A DNA stretch of 64,000 nucleotides from Chthoniobacter flavus (GTDB taxonomy: Bacteria; Verrucomicrobiota; Verrucomicrobiia; Chthoniobacterales; Chthoniobacteraceae). The position numbers and the translations under genes were made by a program. The notes beneath the pieces are model-generated. The model made no database searches and was not told the origin of the DNA. It was given only the letters and a program-made list of their open reading frames with translations. Shown one piece after another: positions 7,928 to 18,607 of this stretch. The DNA lies in contig CAMAUX010000001.1 in assembly GCA_945861435.1 (NCBI GenBank), positions 1 through 64,000 on the forward strand, written 5' to 3'. Within the stretch, counting starts at the first letter, position 1. Each line of letters starts with the position of its first letter.

Positions 7928-10693
7928 CTAGGACCCGCAAGCCGCATGGTACAGCGAAGCCAGCCGCGCGATCTCGCCCGGAGTGAGTTCGCCGCCGGGT
8001 TTTTGTTCAAGCATCCGTCCGAGGTCGCGGAGCCATGTCAGACTCGCGCGTTCCGGCCCCGCGGCAAGCGCCAGCGCCTCCTCCCAGCAACCTGCGGCGC
8101 GCCAGTTCCTGAGGGCATCGCCGACCGCGGGGATCGTGGCAAAAAGGGACGCCGCCTCGCGGTGCAGTCCGCGCGCCTCGTGCATGCGGGCTTTCCGGAG
8201 GAGATCCTCCGGCTCGAGCAGGCCAAGGATCGCTTCCGCATCGCTGAACCGCCGGGCGTCGAGCAGCGTGTCGAACGCGATGCCTCGCAATCTGCGTGCC
8301 TCCTCATCGGTTGCAGCGCTGCCCGTTGCGAACCCCGTGAGCACGAGCCATCCCGGGACATCGCCGATGAAAAGGCGGGCGGAAGAAGGTGCGGCCGCTG
8401 CTGCGCCGAGCGCCTTCCGTAGTTCCTGACTGATCGGTGCAAGAGCCCCCGGCAGCCAGTCCCTGTGCGCACCCTCCGCAACGGCGGCGGTGAGGAGAGC
8501 GCAGGGGGAGATCTGCCGGTCTGCCACCCATGCCTTCAGAGCCTCGAACGCGACACGGTCCCCAGCGGGCTCCGATCCATAGCCCGTTACGGAGCCCCGG
8601 GGCGCAAGGTCGTTCATCACTTCAGATGCGAACGTGACCGCCTCCTCCCGGAGCGCCGCAACGTTCTCCGGGGAGAGAAGAAGATGCGCACACACGGCGA
8701 GCAGTGTGGAATGGGCGCGTCTGCGTGTGCCTTGATCCGCGACACCATTCGGCAGTGCAGGATCGCCGAGCAGGCACACGGCCTGGCGAGCCAGCTGCCA
8801 TGCGCGCTCGGGAGCATCCTCCAGAAGTTTGAGGGCATTGGCCGTGCGACTCTGCACGTCGGAGTCGGCGTCGTGGTCGGTCTGCGCAAGCTCCGCGAGC
8901 AGGTCGGAAATGCTGAAGGGTGCCGCGTTCCCAATGATGTTCCGGCTCAGCGCGATCGTCTCCGGCACCTGGGTGGTATCCAGAAACACGAGGGTCTCGG
9001 TGGCGCGGCTGAGAGCGACGCGAAGCTGGTCGATGCGCAGGCGGGCTTCGTGCGCCGTGAGGTCAGCGCCGACGGGGGGCCTTTGCTCAAGGAGCTTTTG
9101 CAGTCGTCGAAGGGCGCTCCCCGGATCCACCACGCATACCGTTTGATATTCCATCCCCTTTGCCTGGGCCGGCGTGAGGACCGCCTTGCCGAGCGACTCG
9201 GGAATCCAATGAGGAACCACCTCGTCCGCCGTGATCAGCACCACGCCCGGCAGCGACTCCAGCTGCGCAAGCCCCTCTTCTGCTTCGCTGCGGGAGCACC
9301 GTACATGGGCGATCCGCGCTTCCATACACTGCCCTTCTGCCGCGCACTGGCCCCTGGGTTTTTCCGACCGGTTCAGCTTGTCATAAAACGCGCTCGCGCG
9401 GTCGACCACTTCCGCGATGCGGGCTGGCGAACGCAGATTTTCACTGAGCTGCAGTTCCAGAGGTTTGGGAAATCCGAGCCGGGAAAGCAGCCTCTTGATG
9501 GAGGCCCAATCGAACGCCGAGGGGCGCACCGTCTGTGCTTCGTCGCCGGCGATCAGCAACTCAGGAAGCCTTCCTCCGCTCTTTTTCAGCGCGAGGCAGA
9601 GCTCCAGAACGACCGCAGCTTCAAGAACGCAGAGGTCCTGCACCTCGTCGACGACCACCCGGTCGAAGCCCTCAAGCACCTGTGGGGCCCCTTGTTTTTG
9701 GAGCAGGGACACCGCCTCCCAAGCCGCTTCCAGTTCCGGGAAGAACTGCGAAAGCGAAGGATACTCGGGGTCGCCGGCGACAATGTGCGTCTCGATGGAG
9801 CGGATGGTGTGGAGCAGCGACGTCACGGCGCGGCCGTCGATGCGGGAGCCGTGTTCCCGGCGCTCGCGGTAATCCTCGTCGCTCAGCCGCGTGAGTCCCG
9901 CCCGGCAGTCGGTTTTTGAATGGCCCGGAATGATGCCGCCGAAGAGCACGCCCCGGATCTCGCAAAACAGGGCGTCTTCGGCCTCAGCCCACGGCCCCAG
10001 GGTGGAACGTTCCAACCGATTGGTGACTTGGCGAAAACGCACGCGAGCGTGTGCCGACGGCTTTGGAATATCTCGTCCGCAGATTTCCCCCAGGAAAGTG
10101 GCGTAATCTTTCGAGACCACCGATCCCTCGGGCGCGAATGCGCTGAAGTGTTCGGCGGCCGTCCTTGCAAGGTCGGCCGACCACGTGAGGTACAGCACGC
10201 GCTGCCCCGGCTGCGGGATGGCGGCCTTCCAGAGAGCGAATGTTTTTCCAGAGCCTGGCGGGCCGAGGACGATCCGCACGGGGCTCGTGGACTGGGCAAA
10301 TTGCAGCTGCTTTTCTGTCCAAGGCGATCCGTGAAAATCGCCCCCCTCGAAGTCTTGGCTGGTTTGGTGGTGGAGATAATCGCTGTAGAAACCTGCGTCG
10401 AGGGGCGTGTGGTCGTCGTGGTGCCGGATATCGCGCACCACAATGGAGCCCTCTGGAAAGCTCGCGTCCTTTGTCTTCGGCGTGCCCTGCGGTGCCCACC
10501 AGAGGTAGAAGTGATTCCCGTTGTTGCCCCCCATCGGAGTCCGCCGCCAGCCCCGGTTCACCTCATCGGTGCAGGGTTTCGCGACCGACGGCCGGCCGTG
10601 CGCGGCGAGGTGCCGCAGCACCAGGGAGAAGCGTTTGCGCAGATGCTCGACCTCCGTGAGATCGCAGGCCGGATGGATGAGGACGGAATGCAT
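7928..10693 (-). CDS. UvrD/Rep-like SF1 helicase family protein with unusual N- and C-terminal extensions
   Basis: 921-residue protein with the SF1 UvrD-like motif set. Walker A is GPPGSGKT (144-151), motif II is DEVQD (349-353), motif III is IAGDEAQTVRPS, and motif IV has LSENLRSPARIAEVV. A later GMEYQTVCVVDPG and the C-terminal RVALSRATETLVFLD (motif VI) complete the core. The first ~120 residues (containing NHFYLWWAPQG and RDIRHHDDH) and the last ~320 Ala-rich helical residues match no family I know by eye. It would be an ATP-driven nucleic-acid translocase. It is the last gene of the MoxR/vWA/sigma operon, 117 bp after the preceding gene, and no Shine-Dalgarno is apparent. Confidence 0.75.
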   Translation of the reverse strand: MHSVLIHPACDLTEVEHLRKRFSLVLRHLAAHGRPSVAKPCTDEVNRGWRRTPMGGNNGNHFYLWWAPQGTPKTKDASFPEGSIVVRDIRHHDDHTPLDAGFYSDYLHHQTSQDFEGGDFHGSPWTEKQLQFAQSTSPVRIVLGPPGSGKTFALWKAAIPQPGQRVLYLTWSADLARTAAEHFSAFAPEGSVVSKDYATFLGEICGRDIPKPSAHARVRFRQVTNRLERSTLGPWAEAEDALFCEIRGVLFGGIIPGHSKTDCRAGLTRLSDEDYRERREHGSRIDGRAVTSLLHTIRSIETHIVAGDPEYPSLSQFFPELEAAWEAVSLLQKQGAPQVLEGFDRVVVDEVQDLCVLEAAVVLELCLALKKSGGRLPELLIAGDEAQTVRPSAFDWASIKRLLSRLGFPKPLELQLSENLRSPARIAEVVDRASAFYDKLNRSEKPRGQCAAEGQCMEARIAHVRCSRSEAEEGLAQLESLPGVVLITADEVVPHWIPESLGKAVLTPAQAKGMEYQTVCVVDPGSALRRLQKLLEQRPPVGADLTAHEARLRIDQLRVALSRATETLVFLDTTQVPETIALSRNIIGNAAPFSISDLLAELAQTDHDADSDVQSRTANALKLLEDAPERAWQLARQAVCLLGDPALPNGVADQGTRRRAHSTLLAVCAHLLLSPENVAALREEAVTFASEVMNDLAPRGSVTGYGSEPAGDRVAFEALKAWVADRQISPCALLTAAVAEGAHRDWLPGALAPISQELRKALGAAAAAPSSARLFIGDVPGWLVLTGFATGSAATDEEARRLRGIAFDTLLDARRFSDAEAILGLLEPEDLLRKARMHEARGLHREAASLFATIPAVGDALRNWRAAGCWEEALALAAGPERASLTWLRDLGRMLEQKPGGELTPGEIARLASLYHAACGS

Positions 10694-11735: not shown

Positions 11736-13094
11736 TCAAGCGGCGAGGGAGGATTGGCCGAGGCGCGTGGGGTGGCGCAGCTTGCGCAGGGCTTTCGCTT
11801 CGATCTGGCGGATGCGTTCCCTTGTCACTTTGAAGACGACGCCGATTTCCTGGAGGGTCATCGGGGAATGGGTGTCGCCGAGGCCGTGGCGGAGCATGAG
11901 GACCTTTTGTTCGCGCTCGGAGAGTTTTTTCAATGCGGCACGGAGACGGTCGCGTTCGCCGTTGCGTTCGGCTTCCGCGAAGGGGTTTTGGGCGCGTTCA
12001 TCGGGCAGCGTGCTTGCGAGTGTGGCGTCGCCGTCCTCGCCCATCGGAGCGTCGAGAGACACGATGCTCTGGGCTTTGGCGAGGCGTTGGAGTTGGACGA
12101 TGCGCTGGAGGGGCATGCTGGTTTCGGCCGCGATCTCTTCGGGCGATGGATCGCGTCCGAGTTCCTGTGTGAGTGTGCGCGTGGCACGTTCGAGCGCTCC
12201 GAAGTGCTCGTTCATGTGGACGGGTGTGCGGACCGTGCGGCTTTGGTTGGCGATGCCCCTTGAGATGGACTGCTTGATCCACCAGGTGGCGTAGGTGCTG
12301 AATTTGAAGCCCAGGTGCGGGTTGAATTTGTCGACGGCCCGCATGAGGCCGAGGTTGCCCTCCTGAATCACATCCGAGAGGGAAAGCCCGCGGTGGGTGT
12401 AATGACGGGCGATGGAGACGACGAGGCGCAGATTCGCCTGCATCATGTGGTTCCTTGCGGCGAGGGCCTTTGCAGAGAGCTTTTGGATTTCTTGCAGGAT
12501 GGATGGGAGATCGTCGGATGTGACCCAGTGTTTTTCGAAAAACGTGGGGGAGTCTGCCAGCGCGGCATCGGCGGCGTGAGGATGGATGGACGGTAGAGCT
12601 TCCAGCACCAAGGCGGGGCGGAGCTTCAGAGCGTGGAGGGCGGCGGCATATTTCTTGAAAGCCAGCTCGAAGATCTCCTTCGCTTCCCGGCGACGGCTTG
12701 CGCTTTTGCGAGGGAGCCTTCCGAGTGCGATGGCGGCTGCGGACACCGCGTTGATGGTGCGTTCGAGTTTCTTCACCAATGCGGGGAGTTTGGCGTGATG
12801 CTCGGAGGGATCGGCGCCGCCGGCGTTGTTACGGCGGTCGAGGGTGAAGGCCTGCTCCAGACGGTGCGAACCCTCCTCGGCACTGAGGAGTTTGTGGGAT
12901 AGGGCGAGCACGTGGTCGGCCGTGAGGCGGAACCTCGAGAGAAGTGCCGCTGCTTGGGTCTGCGCCTCCTGAAGTTCGGTGGCGATGCGGACCTCACCCT
13001 CGCGGGTCAGAAGGGCGGTGGCTCCGATGCCGCGGAGGTAGTTGCCGATGCCATCGTCTTCCTTCGGTTGCGGCGTGGGGTGCTGGATTTTCAT
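11736..13094 (-). CDS. Sigma-70 family RNA polymerase sigma factor (RpoD/SigA-like architecture)
   Basis: 452 residues starting at ATG 13094. Region 1.2 is at about 12-45 (GNYLRGIGATALLTREGEV). An Arg/Ala-rich non-conserved insert of about 150 residues follows. Region 2 is at about 213-285 (NLRLVVSIARHYTHRGL, DVIQEGNLGLMRAVDKF, FSTYATWWIKQSI), region 3 at about 295-350, and region 4 at about 385-440 with the VTRERIRQIEAKALRKLR helix-turn-helix. It would direct core polymerase to -10/-35 promoters. It sits inside the MoxR/vWA/helicase operon, 49 nt after the vWA gene, rather than in a dnaG-rpoD housekeeping locus. That suggests a dedicated or alternative sigma. Confidence 0.9.
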   Translation of the reverse strand: MKIQHPTPQPKEDDGIGNYLRGIGATALLTREGEVRIATELQEAQTQAAALLSRFRLTADHVLALSHKLLSAEEGSHRLEQAFTLDRRNNAGGADPSEHHAKLPALVKKLERTINAVSAAAIALGRLPRKSASRRREAKEIFELAFKKYAAALHALKLRPALVLEALPSIHPHAADAALADSPTFFEKHWVTSDDLPSILQEIQKLSAKALAARNHMMQANLRLVVSIARHYTHRGLSLSDVIQEGNLGLMRAVDKFNPHLGFKFSTYATWWIKQSISRGIANQSRTVRTPVHMNEHFGALERATRTLTQELGRDPSPEEIAAETSMPLQRIVQLQRLAKAQSIVSLDAPMGEDGDATLASTLPDERAQNPFAEAERNGERDRLRAALKKLSEREQKVLMLRHGLGDTHSPMTLQEIGVVFKVTRERIRQIEAKALRKLRHPTRLGQSSLAA

Positions 13095-13143: not shown

Positions 13144-14742
13144 TTACTGAAGGACGCGGGTGAGGGATTTTCCGAGGACTTCGGGGAGTTGGGAGGCGTT
13201 TTGGATGGTCTCAGAGTCTGGGAAAATTCTGTGCATGGGCTGGATGCCGATGCCGATGGCGAGCAGGTGGATTCCCTGTTGTTCAAGGTCCTGGGCGGCT
13301 TCGCGCACCGCTGCTTCGGTTTCGGATGCGATGTCGCCGTCGGTGAGGAGGAAGAGGAAACGGTCCCGTTCGGGGCGCTTTTCGAGAGACTCCGCGGCCT
13401 TCTTCATCGCCTTCACCAGATTGGTGCCGCCGTCTGCTTCGAGGATTGAGCCGAGAACTGCTTCAGCGCGCGCGTCGCTCATCCGTTGCCACGCATGAAG
13501 GAGATCGACCCCATGGTTGAATCCCAGGACGGAGAAGGGAATGCCGGCTCGGGAGCAGCTCTCCCGCACGATCACCAGGGATTCAAAGGCCGCGGTCGCC
13601 TTCCCGTTTTGCTTCATGGAAAAAGACCGGTCGACGAGGAAGGCGAATGCTGGGTCTGGAAGGGTCCTGCGGACGCGTTGCATCCAGAGCTGGTTGTGAA
13701 GGCGGGGGTTGGCCTCGCATTGCATGGCGACCCGCAAGTCGATGCGATCCCCGGAAGGTCTGCCCCGGACGTGCTTGAGGCCGCGGTGGTTGGGGAGGAG
13801 CTCCAGCAGGAGGTCGGTCGTGCTGCGGATCTGCTCGTCGTGTTTCTGAACGGCGGCGAGATAGGGACCGTTCCCCTTCTTCTCGAGACGGCGCCGCATT
13901 TCTCCTGTGACGCTTGCACCAGTGCCCGCCGTGGTTCCGCCGGTGTGAACGCGTACGGTCTGGTTCGGGAACGGGGGTTCGCCGAATTCCTCGATGAGTT
14001 TCAAATAAGCAGGGAGCACACCGTTGCGGACGTGATCCCACATGGTGGCCTGTGTCATCCGGACCCAGCGCTCGAAGTTTGGCGGGGAGAGGCGCGAATC
14101 GACCTCGCGGTATGCGGCTGCCACGGGGTGGGTCTTGTAGATCTCCTCGACGAAGTCGGTGCTGGTGGTGGCGGGGGGCAGGCAGGCGAAAGCGTTTTCC
14201 AAAGCGGACCGGCACTCGAGCAGGGCGGCGCCGGCCGCGGGATGGATGCCGGCGGGGATCTCCTGGGTTTCGCCGAGTTCCATCAGGCCGCGCAGGAAGG
14301 CGCGCGCGGGGTGTTCGTCCGTGGTGAAGGGATCGGATTCGGCGCGATCGCAGAGCTTCGTCACCTCCTGCCATGGGAGGGAGCCAGGGAAGCGGGCGAC
14401 CAACCACGATTCGATCCGCACATCCTCGATGCAGTTGAGGAGGTAGTGGACGGCGGGTTGTTGGCGCAGTTTTTCGGGGACGATTTCGTGGAGACGGGTG
14501 AGCGCGGCGTGTGCGGCCTCGTGCATGACGATCCAGGCGCAGCGGGCTTTCGGGCGCGTCTGGAGTTCATGCAGCGGGAGGGTGATGACGTTGTTCGTCC
14601 AGTTGAAGGCCCACCATTGGCCGAGTTCCACTTTGAGATCTCCGCGAAGGGAGATCATCGCGGCCATGGCGAGAGCCTCCTGAATTTCTTCCGCAAGCTC
14701 CGCTCCGGTGCGCGGCGCGTGTTCTAAAAAATGGAGGTTCAA
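13144..14742 (-). CDS. vWA-domain protein with HExxH metallopeptidase-like N-terminus (DUF2201-like)
   Basis: 532 residues from a TTG start at 14742. The start is supported by GGAGGA at 14753-14748 with 5-nt spacing and by a 4-nt overlap with the stop of the AAA+ gene. The N-terminal half contains IVMHEAAHAAL, a HExxH zinc motif (His74-Glu75-His78), and a further acidic segment (CIEDVRIESWL). The C-terminal half is a von Willebrand A domain with MIDAS residues D371-x-S373-x-S375 (DRSFSM), DGGTN and FLLTDGD. This layout matches the DUF2201 family, whose members are usually encoded beside MoxR ATPases and act as their partner. The substrate is unknown. Confidence 0.85.
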   Translation of the reverse strand: MNLHFLEHAPRTGAELAEEIQEALAMAAMISLRGDLKVELGQWWAFNWTNNVITLPLHELQTRPKARCAWIVMHEAAHAALTRLHEIVPEKLRQQPAVHYLLNCIEDVRIESWLVARFPGSLPWQEVTKLCDRAESDPFTTDEHPARAFLRGLMELGETQEIPAGIHPAAGAALLECRSALENAFACLPPATTSTDFVEEIYKTHPVAAAYREVDSRLSPPNFERWVRMTQATMWDHVRNGVLPAYLKLIEEFGEPPFPNQTVRVHTGGTTAGTGASVTGEMRRRLEKKGNGPYLAAVQKHDEQIRSTTDLLLELLPNHRGLKHVRGRPSGDRIDLRVAMQCEANPRLHNQLWMQRVRRTLPDPAFAFLVDRSFSMKQNGKATAAFESLVIVRESCSRAGIPFSVLGFNHGVDLLHAWQRMSDARAEAVLGSILEADGGTNLVKAMKKAAESLEKRPERDRFLFLLTDGDIASETEAAVREAAQDLEQQGIHLLAIGIGIQPMHRIFPDSETIQNASQLPEVLGKSLTRVLQ

Positions 14743-16109
14743 GACAGTCCTCCGGCGACCATCATGCTTTGCACGGCGCGTCTGTCGCCGCTGTCCCGAA
14801 GCCGTCCGATATACAAGTCCCGGATCGCATCGGAAATGAGGTTTGGCGTGGCGGGGACGCCGGCGCGGATGTTTTCCACGACCATGCGGACGAGGTTGTG
14901 GAGGGTGCGTCGCGAGAAGCTTTGGCGCTGTTTGGAGAGGCGTCCGATGGAGGGCACTTTTCCATCGCCGCCCGCGGCGAGGACGACGCCATGGTGAAAG
15001 ATCGCGAGGCGATGGACGAGATCGTCGATGTTGCTGATCTGCTGGAGTTCGCCGAACACGGGGGTTGCGTCTCCGGCTTTGTAGGCGCGCCCGCAGGTGA
15101 TGACGCGCGGATGCTGGCCAAAGACCCACAGCCGGAGCATCGCCTCCACTTCGCGTTCGCCCGGGCTTCCCGCCTGATGCCACAAACCCCAGCGGTCGAT
15201 GAATGCCTGGGACAACAACGCGCGTCCGGCGTAGTGGGAGGGGTTCATCGTGCAGAGCAGGCGGAAGCCCGGAGCGACCGGCACATCGGTGCCCGGACCC
15301 TCGCTGAGGATGAGGCTTGGCGGGGTTTCGAGGGCGCAGTTGAGGCGTTCGAGGACCTGAGTTTCGGCGAGGTTGACCTCGTCCAGGAGCAGCCACCATC
15401 CATGGCGCATGGCCTGAGGCAGGTAACCTTCCTGGAAGCGCCAGGTGGATTTTCCCTGCTCTGATGGGACGTAGCGTCCGACGAGTTCGGAGGCATCACT
15501 GTGGCCATGGAGATTGAGGCGGACCGCAGGCTGGCCGAGCAGATGTGCGAGGTAGAGGACCGCTGTGGTCTTGGACGCGGCGGTTTCCCCTTCAAGGGCC
15601 ACCGGCATCCCGTGGCGGACGCCGAGGGCGACGGCGCGAAGGCTTTCGAGCAGGGGTTGGTCGAGGCAGAGGTGCGCGAACTGTTCACCCGCGGGAACCC
15701 TGCTCCGATGGGCCTCTGCGGGTGGCGTGGGGATCGGGAGCTCGATGTCCAAGACCCGCAGGTGCGTGGCTGTGCGTTCGATGGGGAGCCTGGCCTCTCC
15801 CTCGAGAAGAACCTGTGCATAAGCCTGCTGATCCACGTCGCCAGAGGGCGCCCCCGAGGGGTCGCCCGTGGCCACGGAAAGAAGGGCGCGGAGTTCGTCG
15901 AAGGCGATGGCTTTTGGGCCGCCGGTCTTTGTCTTTTCGAGGAGAGCGGCGTCCGCCTGCGGGCCTGCGATGACCATGTCTGCGAGCGAGGGAAGGTTGA
16001 TCACCTCCACGCCCCGGGAGGCGAGGAAGGCCGAGGCGTTGTCGTGCCCTTCCTGGTCGAAACCCTTGAGAAGCACGCGGCGTGGCAGTTTTGTTTTGGG
16101 AATCGTCAT
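14739..16109 (-). CDS. MoxR/AAA_5-type AAA+ ATPase with N-terminal BRCT-like domain
   Basis: 456 residues starting at ATG 16109. Residues about 9-78 look like a BRCT domain: RRVLLKGFD, a helix with a Gly turn (SRGVEVINLP), ADMVIAGPQ, then a Lys/Ala helix and KAIAFDELRALL. The AAA+ core has Walker A GETAASKT (174-181), with Ser replacing the second Gly, Walker B LLLDE (240-244) and a sensor-1-like LLCTMNPSHYAGR. MoxR ATPases remodel proteins together with vWA partners, and such a partner is encoded by the overlapping next gene. A BRCT-like module suggests recruitment to DNA ends or phosphoproteins. The BRCT call is by eye; the AAA+ call is firm. Confidence 0.85.
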   Translation of the reverse strand: MTIPKTKLPRRVLLKGFDQEGHDNASAFLASRGVEVINLPSLADMVIAGPQADAALLEKTKTGGPKAIAFDELRALLSVATGDPSGAPSGDVDQQAYAQVLLEGEARLPIERTATHLRVLDIELPIPTPPAEAHRSRVPAGEQFAHLCLDQPLLESLRAVALGVRHGMPVALEGETAASKTTAVLYLAHLLGQPAVRLNLHGHSDASELVGRYVPSEQGKSTWRFQEGYLPQAMRHGWWLLLDEVNLAETQVLERLNCALETPPSLILSEGPGTDVPVAPGFRLLCTMNPSHYAGRALLSQAFIDRWGLWHQAGSPGEREVEAMLRLWVFGQHPRVITCGRAYKAGDATPVFGELQQISNIDDLVHRLAIFHHGVVLAAGGDGKVPSIGRLSKQRQSFSRRTLHNLVRMVVENIRAGVPATPNLISDAIRDLYIGRLRDSGDRRAVQSMMVAGGLS

Positions 16110-16149: not shown

Positions 16150-16575
16150 TCACCCGGGAAAGGCGTCGCCGTCCGGGTCGCAATTGTTTCCCTGATCCGA
16201 CACGACCGAGCTCGCGGCGTTCTGCTCATCCAGCGTGATTTGGGCTTGGAGGACGCGCTTCTTGAGGTCTGGGAGCGTGATGAGGATCTGATCGCGGATT
16301 TCGTCCTTGAGCCGGAGTTGAAGGACGCCGTCGAAAGCGGAGAGGAGTTCCAATGAGGCGGCAGGGAGGTGTTGTTTGAGGAATTCGAAGCCGATCTCGA
16401 TGGCGGGTTCGGCTTTGTCCCAGTTGACCCAGGAACCGGTTTTCCCGGTGGAATCCGAGGCCATGAGGGTGTCGTCATTAGTGTCGACACGCACGACGGT
16501 GTAGACGCGGCCGGCTTGGTAGCCGTTGCCGGTGACTTTCATTCTCACTTTTTGGTTTTTGTGCGGTTGGATCAT
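16150..16575 (-). CDS. Small protein with N-terminal SH3/KOW-like barrel, first gene of the MoxR operon
   Basis: 141 residues, ATG at 16575, with its stop 41 nt before the AAA+ gene. The first ~50 residues are beta-rich with a KVRMKVTGNGYQAG...VYTVVRV pattern and a Trp (SWVNWD), like a small SH3/KOW-type barrel. The rest is helical (ELLSAFDGVLQLRLKDEIRD, then a Leu/Lys helix) and ends in an acidic Gly/Asp/Pro tail. No family is recognised. Position suggests it belongs to the system, perhaps as an adaptor. No Shine-Dalgarno precedes the ATG. The leader just upstream has a 9-bp tandem repeat (16578-16598). Confidence 0.65.
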   Translation of the reverse strand: MIQPHKNQKVRMKVTGNGYQAGRVYTVVRVDTNDDTLMASDSTGKTGSWVNWDKAEPAIEIGFEFLKQHLPAASLELLSAFDGVLQLRLKDEIRDQILITLPDLKKRVLQAQITLDEQNAASSVVSDQGNNCDPDGDAFPG

Positions 16576-16927: not shown

Positions 16928-18607
16928 ATGGGTCGCATGGCAACATCCGCCTTCATGTCCCTTCCCTCCCCGTCTTCCCCCGGAGATTCCCCCGATCCCA
17001 GAAAACCGGGCCCGTTCCAGAAAGCCTTTTTTTGGATGGCCGGTGCGCGGTGGGAGATTCTGAGGCTGTGCGGGTCTGCGGAGCAGGAGCGGGTGGCGGT
17101 GATTGGGTCGACGCTTTTGGTTCCGACGACGATGGGTTTTCTCGGAATGCTCTTTTTTGTGCGGAGCAGATTTGAGGATCCGCCATTTCTGAGCTGTGCG
17201 GCCCTTGCGGTTTTATGGGCGCTGGTGATTTTGAATACGGACCGGGTGTTGATTGCGCTTTACCGTCCGTTTCAGCCTCTTTGGCGGAGGTTCATTCAGG
17301 TGGGCTTCCGGCTGGGGCTCGCGGGGGTTGTATCACTCGCTATTACTTTCCCCTTCTGTCTTGACCAATACCGGCCGGCGATTCGGTTCCGGTATCAGAC
17401 GGAGTTACAGGGGACGCTGAACCAGCTGCGCGATGGGGAGTCCGGTGGGCGCAAGGTGCTGACGCAGAATTTGAATCAGATGCGCGAGAGCACGGAGGCG
17501 GACCGGAGGAAGCTGGAGGCGGATCACACGACGTTGCGTGAGTCGCTTGTCGCGCAACTGGCGCCGCTGGAACGCGGGGTGATCAATGCGGAGATCTACG
17601 CGGATGAGAAGATGGAGGAGGAGCGGAGGCGCGCCACGGCGGATGATTTCGTGGCTCCGGCGACGGGGGCGACGCTCAATCTGATTGCGCGCATGGATGC
17701 GCAGAAGGAGGAATCCGACCGGCTGCGTCCGCTATTGGAGGAGCAGCTGAAGATGCACAGTCGGTACGTGGAAGCGGCGACTCGTGAGGAGGAGGGGCTT
17801 CCGAATGAGTTTTATCCCGAGCCGAAGAGGGCTGGCCAGGGGCCGCGGGTGAAGGATCTGCGGTCGCGGGACGCGCAGGTGATGATGGAGGTGAGGCGGT
17901 TGGAGGGAGCGCTGGAGAAGGCGCAGAGGGAGTTGGCGCTGACGACTGAGGCAATTACCCGGGCGCGTCTCGCGGATCGCAATGGTTACCTGGACACTCT
18001 GGCTTCCAAGAGGGAGGCGTTCGTGAAGGAGGCGGGTGAGCGGGAGCGGGTGCGCCAGGAGCGTCTTGCGCAGCTCGCCAAACAGATCAGCACGGAGGAC
18101 GAGTTGCACACCGCGCGGCGTGCGAAACAGACTGCCCATGTGGCGGCTTTGGAGGAGGATCTTGATCGCGCGCAGAAGCGGCACGACGACACGTATCTGC
18201 CGCAGATCAAAAGGCTCGAAGGGAAGATCAACGGAATCTTCGATCCGATGGAAGAGACGATCGGCTTGTACAAAGTCATCTTCACACCGCCGCCGGACAT
18301 GCCGGAGGACGCGAAGCTCGAGTATCGGTGGGCGGCGGGCGTGTTTCAGTTCCTTGTCGTTTTCGGGACGCTGTTCCTGCTGGATCTGATCCCGATCATG
18401 GTGAAGTTGCTGTCGAGGCCGGGTCCGTATGACGTGTTGGTGGCGCACGATGAGACGACGGCGAATTTGAACTGGGGGGATTTCGAGAAGCACGTGGCGC
18501 AGCATGGAAGCGGCTGGCCGGGTGAGCGGTCCGGGGATGTGGCCGTGGCGGAGGCGCTGATCCGGAGTCATTATCGGATGCCGCCCGAGAAATCTGCGGC
18601 GGCCTGA
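16928..18607 (+). CDS. DUF4407-like membrane protein with long coiled coil
   Basis: 559 residues. Three membrane segments lie near 53-77, 85-110 and 121-145, with the pattern LWALVILNTDRVLIALY typical of DUF4407 (a membrane helix ending in N-x-D-R). A long Glu/Arg/Lys-rich coiled coil covers about 160-440 and a fourth membrane segment is near 465-490. The start may be 16928 or the ATG at 16937. It is transcribed divergently from the MoxR operon and shares its control region, so co-regulation is possible. The biochemical role of this family is unknown. The next gene follows after 11 nt. Confidence 0.75.
   Translation: MGRMATSAFMSLPSPSSPGDSPDPRKPGPFQKAFFWMAGARWEILRLCGSAEQERVAVIGSTLLVPTTMGFLGMLFFVRSRFEDPPFLSCAALAVLWALVILNTDRVLIALYRPFQPLWRRFIQVGFRLGLAGVVSLAITFPFCLDQYRPAIRFRYQTELQGTLNQLRDGESGGRKVLTQNLNQMRESTEADRRKLEADHTTLRESLVAQLAPLERGVINAEIYADEKMEEERRRATADDFVAPATGATLNLIARMDAQKEESDRLRPLLEEQLKMHSRYVEAATREEEGLPNEFYPEPKRAGQGPRVKDLRSRDAQVMMEVRRLEGALEKAQRELALTTEAITRARLADRNGYLDTLASKREAFVKEAGERERVRQERLAQLAKQISTEDELHTARRAKQTAHVAALEEDLDRAQKRHDDTYLPQIKRLEGKINGIFDPMEETIGLYKVIFTPPPDMPEDAKLEYRWAAGVFQFLVVFGTLFLLDLIPIMVKLLSRPGPYDVLVAHDETTANLNWGDFEKHVAQHGSGWPGERSGDVAVAEALIRSHYRMPPEKSAAA

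Follow-up and report, generated by a model that had tools for sequence, protein, structure and literature searches.

The window analysed here is a stretch of 64,000 nucleotides from Chthoniobacter flavus (contig CAMAUX010000001.1, positions 1 to 64,000). Its minus strand carries a three-gene cassette, which encodes in order a small protein, a protein joining an N-terminal domain of BRCT fold to an AAA+ core (hereafter BRCT-AAA), and a partner combining a minigluzincin-like peptidase domain with a VWA domain (Table 1). This order is kept in 9 of 9 Verrucomicrobiota loci. BRCT-AAA had been singled out in a first-pass annotation of the sequence, whose coordinates for the gene proved exact; the motifs quoted there (VLLKGFD, ADMVIAG, AIAFDELRALL and GETAASKT) are all present in the protein. 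The last two genes overlap. Indeed, within a TTGA sequence the putative TTG start of the partner overlaps the stop codon of the AAA gene, and a GGAGGA Shine-Dalgarno sequence lies just upstream. Overlaps of 1-4 bases between the AAA and VWA genes occur in the window and in several relatives, and the partner is likely translationally coupled to BRCT-AAA. The small protein has no match in Pfam, NCBIfam, PADLOC or the PDB. In BRCT-AAA itself, Pfam recognises the AAA_5 core alone, with no match in the first 100 residues. Rfam finds two tRNAs only. Elsewhere in the window, a 921-residue protein with weak UvrD/GajB-like helicase matches is encoded at 7928-10693 on the minus strand, and a gene for a DUF4407 protein (16928-18607, plus strand) diverges from the cassette.

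Table 1. Cassette genes, their domains and motifs, and the adjoining sigma factor gene, with positions in the window.
Feature	Position	Strand	Evidence or remark
Upstream small protein, 141 aa, first operon gene	16150..16575	minus	Conserved upstream in 9/9 loci; no known family
BRCT-AAA protein gene	14739..16109	minus	456 aa, P0001; ATG at 16109, stop at 14739; conserved in 9 loci
N-terminal BRCT-fold domain, residues ~9-82	15864..16085	minus	AF2; Foldseek/VIA; hhalign and shuffles; Pfam on homologue; LigA BRCT via family profile
AAA_5 core, residues 170-306, midasin/CobS/NorQ branch	15192..15602	minus	Pfam and PDB profile scores
Walker A variant GETAASKT (residues 174-181); last Gly replaced by Ser, in one relative by Ala	15567..15590	minus	Alignment
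Walker B LLLDE, residues 240-244, intact	15378..15392	minus	D243 and E244 invariant
Partner gene: minigluzincin-like peptidase domain, helical region, VWA/MIDAS	13144..14742	minus	Likely TTG start at 14742
HEAAH zinc motif of partner	14509..14523	minus	Invariant in 8, HECAH in ninth
Invariant Glu-Asp (NxxEDxRIE) of partner, candidate third zinc ligand, gluzincin type	14422..14427	minus	Alignment
VWA domain of partner	13246..13644	minus	Pfam VWA, E 2e-10
MIDAS motif DRSFS (DxSxS) of partner, intact	13618..13632	minus	D372, S374, S376, T441 and D469 invariant in 8 aligned
Sigma-70 family factor, long divergent N-terminal half	11736..13094	minus	Directly downstream of cassette

Taking fold and sequence evidence together, the N-terminal domain is almost certainly a BRCT domain, as the first-pass annotation had proposed. 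An AF2 model computed from eight sequences (the window domain and seven relatives) has the β-α-β-β-α-β-α topology and element order of BRCT domains, with strands at residues 11-15, 35-37, 45-48 and 66-69 and helices at 19-31, 54-62 and 70-81. Core pLDDT is about 84 (83-87 at residues 11-50, lower, 67-74, at 51-80) and pTM is 0.53. The model and its PDB neighbours thus agree with the BRCT sandwich, β1-α1-β2-β3-α2-β4-α3 over some 75-90 residues. When the model is compared with the PDB by Foldseek, the top ranks are the BRCT domains of LigA, PARP1, RFC1, REV1 and PARP (E 0.01-0.07, probability 0.96-1.0; overall E range 0.01-0.3), and with VIA-align nearly all leading rows are BRCT domains (Z up to 8.6). 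Yeast Rfc1 and human RFC1 BRCTs are among the neighbours found by both methods.

Sequence profiles lead to the same family over the whole length of the domain. With hhalign, the family N-domain scores 37.5 (probability 92%) against 26 LigA BRCTs; the match is more than chance, since the best of 200 column shuffles reaches 19.8 and the reversed version 7.2. Searched over whole genomes, the family profile finds a LigA BRCT at E 3e-6, at the same place as the PF00533 match, and picks up several other LigA BRCTs more weakly. Pfam BRCT has no match in the window protein itself; in one homologue it spans the whole domain at E 0.0011 and 19.6 bits, 1.7 bits under the cut-off of 21.3. The aligned relatives have in common the motif R-[IV]-[LC]-L-[KR]-G-F ... 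G ... V ... A..V..GP ... L ... G ... [VI]..D....L. The sole clear Pfam BRCT of the same genome is a separate one, in an 816-residue frame on another contig, and it aligns with the LigA set.

The ATPase core belongs to the AAA_5 family (E 2.3e-15, 57 bits), with the Walker B Asp-Glu and the sensor 1 Asn (D243, E244 and N289) invariant, as are the lid arginines, across aligned members. The Walker A motif departs from the canonical GxxxxGK[ST]. The serine variant pointed out in the first-pass annotation is a fixed feature of the family, being GETAASKT in 8/8 members and GETAAAKT in a divergent ninth, in a core that is otherwise intact; it could weaken ATP binding. The earlier description of a MoxR-type ATPase with an AAA_5 core holds for AAA_5 and is loose for MoxR. 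Indeed, the AAA_3 model of MoxR gives 18.9 bits, below its cut-off of 27, which sets the protein apart from MoxR proper, and the nearest solved AAA domains are those of midasin. The best single-domain scores of the window protein, used because whole-chain E-values for midasin are inflated by the sum of several domains, are 94.9 bits for midasin, 47.2 for NorQ, 43.5 for CobS and 18.3 for the uncharacterized 2r44. With the family profile, midasin AAA3 is the best single domain (101 bits), and CobS reaches 39 bits. Some relatives carry an insertion of about 50 residues at the same site as the insertions of midasin AAA2 and AAA4. On these profile scores, midasin is a nearer relative of the core than NorQ/CobS or MoxR proper.

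In the partner, the first 260 residues are predicted by AF2 (pLDDT 88.8) as a minigluzincin-like domain followed by helices. A minigluzincin holds Foldseek rank 1, and the fold neighbours are the minigluzincins jannalysin, selecase and abylysin (Z 8.2-10.1), the next being HtpX (6.9). A zincin fold is thus combined with an HExxH motif, over which Pfam also places weak SprT-like matches. The Glu-Asp pair that follows (E107-D108, counting from 14745, one codon before the putative TTG start) is invariant in 8 aligned sequences, and its position makes it a putative third ligand. The peptidase domain could be inactive despite the invariant HExxH. The best PDB matches of the VWA domain include midasin and NorD. 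In 9/9 loci, the AAA gene adjoins such a VWA gene, and the MIDAS is intact in the 8 aligned sequences.

Full-length relatives were found only in Verrucomicrobiota by whole-genome and contig searches, with named representatives in Spartobacteria, Chthoniobacteraceae, Akkermansiaceae, Opitutales and an unclassified verrucomicrobial bin. They occur in 2 of 387 genomes of the phylum, and the N-domain gives matches in 8 of 384 genomes of the class, some of them LigA. The most conserved peptides of the family were scanned against 84,980 species of bacteria and archaea, a method that would overlook distant relatives whose Walker A motif differs; this gave seven verrucomicrobial relatives and one partial match (32%) in a Paracoccaceae bin. 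No relative was found in the viral contigs searched. Matches on plasmids and phages were set aside as generic NorQ/CobS/GvpN-like AAA proteins, covered in the ATPase core alone. An Allochromatium neighbourhood has an AAA protein between VWA and DUF3150 genes, and a Caballeronia neighbourhood has an unannotated AAA ORF.

Some loci carry additional or altered copies. Two tandem paralogues of the small protein precede the BRCT-AAA gene at L020 4709-5654, and the most divergent locus has a second AAA+-like gene behind the peptidase-VWA gene (L081 2396-3484). A degraded partial copy at L014 7548-8382 (G000 contig C21) spans the small gene and codons 1-118 of BRCT-AAA, at about 82% DNA identity; it ends at repeat-like sequence, beside a reverse-transcriptase-like fragment. 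An ORF at L016 11281-11814, in which the N-terminal half of the small protein is joined to a piece resembling the AAA C-terminal lid, is apparently a recombination remnant. The sigma factor was considered as a fourth component and rejected. It adjoins the cassette in 4 loci, in varying orientation and position, and is absent elsewhere: L016, L017 and L020 have a sigma factor at most about 3 kb from the cassette and L018 and L021 do not, and the genome of G392 contains a better match than its cassette-side one.

The phosphate pocket of BRCT domains is recognised by a Ser/Thr-Gly in the β1-α1 loop and a Thr/Ser-X-Lys at the start of α2 (PMC10386641). In a joint alignment, 8/8 family members have Lys/Arg-Gly-Phe in place of the Ser/Thr-Gly and are devoid of the Lys of α2, whereas in LigA BRCTs strand 1 is followed by T-G and helix 2 starts mostly with (G)SK, in a few cases with GK. 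By the definition of PMC10386641, and judging from these aligned residues, the phosphoserine pocket is absent from the family. This bears on the targeting to DNA breaks suggested in the first-pass annotation. In such a scheme, the BRCT would bind 5'-phosphate DNA ends or phosphoproteins and bring the ATPase, together with the protease, to DNA breaks, in the way of the RFC1 BRCT. RFC1 is a precedent for the action of a BRCT-AAA+ protein at DNA ends (PMC9293004); its BRCT and that of yeast Rfc1 are structural neighbours of the N-domain, the nearest sequence relative is a LigA BRCT, and the Lys/Arg of the β1-α1 loop adds positive charge. Since the classical phosphate pocket is missing in all eight aligned members, however, docking at breaks finds no support in the sequence. 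In addition, the neighbourhood holds no conserved DNA-repair gene, and no operon protein belongs to a known family of DNA-repair enzymes. Targeting to breaks is therefore unlikely. Binding of DNA by other means is compatible with the lost pocket, because the RFC BRCT contacts DNA via several lysines (PMC9293004), and DNA or nucleoid association of BRCT-AAA is possible. Docking of BRCT domains to proteins without phosphate is well documented (PMC10386641), and phosphate-independent protein docking would fit the family sequences better than DNA-break targeting.

Several known systems share parts of this architecture. In NorQ-NorD, CbbQ-CbbO and CobS-CobT, as in the cassette, a subunit with a single AAA domain of the related AAA_5 type forms a ring beside a VWA/MIDAS protein, and the sequence similarity of NorQ and CobS to the window family amounts to 39-47 bits. 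To our knowledge, the AAA proteins of these systems carry no BRCT and their VWA partners no zinc-peptidase domain. The surroundings of the cassette showed no target operon of nor, cbb or cob type. Midasin (Mdn1/Rea1) has the closest solved AAA domains (95-101 bits per domain), carries a variable insertion at the corresponding site and works with a MIDAS/VWA module. However, its six AAA domains and MIDAS lie in one chain, whereas the cassette encodes one AAA domain and places the MIDAS in a separate protein; midasin is also devoid of BRCT and peptidase. Rfc1/RFC1 has an N-terminal BRCT followed by an AAA+ module, as BRCT-AAA does, but it belongs to the clamp-loader clade, has a DNA-binding collar and no VWA partner, and its BRCT works at 5' DNA, whereas the BRCT-AAA family has not retained the phosphate-pocket residues. 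The C-terminal BRCT of LigA, the nearest sequence relative of the N-domain, has the same fold and element order; it keeps the TG and mostly the GSK of the pocket, and its host protein is entirely different. Finally, the N-domain of the partner resembles jannalysin, selecase, abylysin and Wss1/SPRTN in predicted fold and HExxH, but, unlike them, is linked by a helical region to a VWA domain, in a protein whose gene neighbours that of an AAA+ protein.

From the features computed directly (the BRCT fold, the AAA core, the VWA domain and its MIDAS, the zinc-peptidase motif and fold, the conserved operon and the gene overlap), we infer a working model. BRCT-AAA is probably the ring subunit of an AAA+/VWA remodeller of the NorQ-NorD, CobS-CobT or midasin type, with the N-terminal BRCT as a docking module and a peptidase activity on the adaptor. 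The AAA subunits would assemble as a hexamer, onto which the VWA domain of the partner would plug, holding a putative substrate via the MIDAS metal ion. ATP hydrolysis would then pull or twist the substrate, and the minigluzincin-like domain might cleave it or an attached factor. Meanwhile, the BRCT would keep the ring at its work site by contacting a protein partner; with the phosphate pocket lost, this contact would most likely be phosphate-independent. In NorQ/NorD, the VWA domain acts as a plug of the ring, target binding occurs at the MIDAS, which is needed for action on the target, and the other domain of a NorD-type VWA protein sets specificity (PMC9976466). By analogy, the peptidase and BRCT domains would set the cassette apart, the former acting on the target and the latter placing the machine.

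BRCT domains of bacteria are described as largely limited to DNA ligase and a subunit of DNA polymerase III (PMC10386641), and no mention of BRCT and MoxR together was found in the open-licence literature searched. Here, the fusion of a BRCT to a midasin-like AAA+ subunit is conserved, and in the same operon the MIDAS partner carries a predicted zinc peptidase as well. The cassette thus looks like a new sort of targeted protein-remodelling machine. As a small three-gene system, it makes two questions testable: the role of AAA+/VWA machines without a known metallo-enzyme target, and what a BRCT does once its phosphate pocket is gone.

A biological-conflict or defence role is also improbable. 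MoxR-vWA pairs form the core of ternary conflict systems with a variable third component (PMC7159879), and kinship with these would agree with the patchy occurrence among relatives, the degraded partial copy elsewhere in the genome and a NACHT-associated iREase model that matches weakly. However, PADLOC is blank for all three proteins, neither an effector toxin nor a VMAP, iSTAND or FtsH component could be recognised, the viral contigs searched hold no relatives, and the core is conserved without variation in effector domains.

It is more doubtful still that the cassette is a bacterial analogue of Wss1/SPRTN-Cdc48, in which a minigluzincin protease and an AAA+ unfoldase would clear proteins stuck on DNA, with the BRCT as a chromosome tether. 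The partner fold is minigluzincin-like, SprT-like models match weakly over its HExxH, and BRCT domains are typical of DNA-repair proteins. Wss1 and SPRTN are both termed minigluzincins and act on DNA-bound proteins, Wss1 partnering with the AAA+ Cdc48 (PMC4559962). On the other hand, the operon has no demonstrated DNA-binding element, the putative third ligand is a Glu of gluzincin type, unlike the SprT type, and the nearest AAA relatives are the protein-complex remodellers midasin, NorQ and CobS rather than Cdc48. The Wss1/SPRTN precedent makes a DNA-linked role worth testing and does not establish it. A related proposal, which we regard as a long shot, is a split midasin-like machine: a homomeric BRCT-AAA ring on the chromosome or on a large complex would, with the peptidase-MIDAS partner, extract and cut proteins as a functional counterpart of Wss1/SPRTN in bacteria, with its own AAA+ motor.

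That the N-domain has some fold other than BRCT is highly improbable: PF22739 (NA-iREase3) matches one member at E 5e-5 over residues 43-80 only, the domain profile weakly matches the Rossmann strand-helix-strand of thioredoxin reductase and some receiver domains occur in the Foldseek list, but BRCT matches span the whole domain and fill most top rows of both structural lists, and the family profile recovers true LigA BRCTs with a strong shuffle control. An iREase identity was rejected, as the PF22739 match covers about residues 40-80 alone. So was a Rossmann reading, for which a PDB sequence search with the N-domain profile returned weak thioredoxin-reductase fragments, covering a partial strand-helix-strand only. 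A profile match in G001 (L061) is a GFO/IDH-like oxidoreductase and was taken as chance. Positions ~78-118 of PF22739, the last third of the model, resemble the second half of the BRCT domains in L015, L017 and L020, and the model may overlap BRCT-like sequence. Finally, the family profile finds a BRCT-like domain at L078 1441-1716 (G469, end of contig C22), in a protein that extends to the contig end; this domain keeps T-G-F and GPKKLEKAK.
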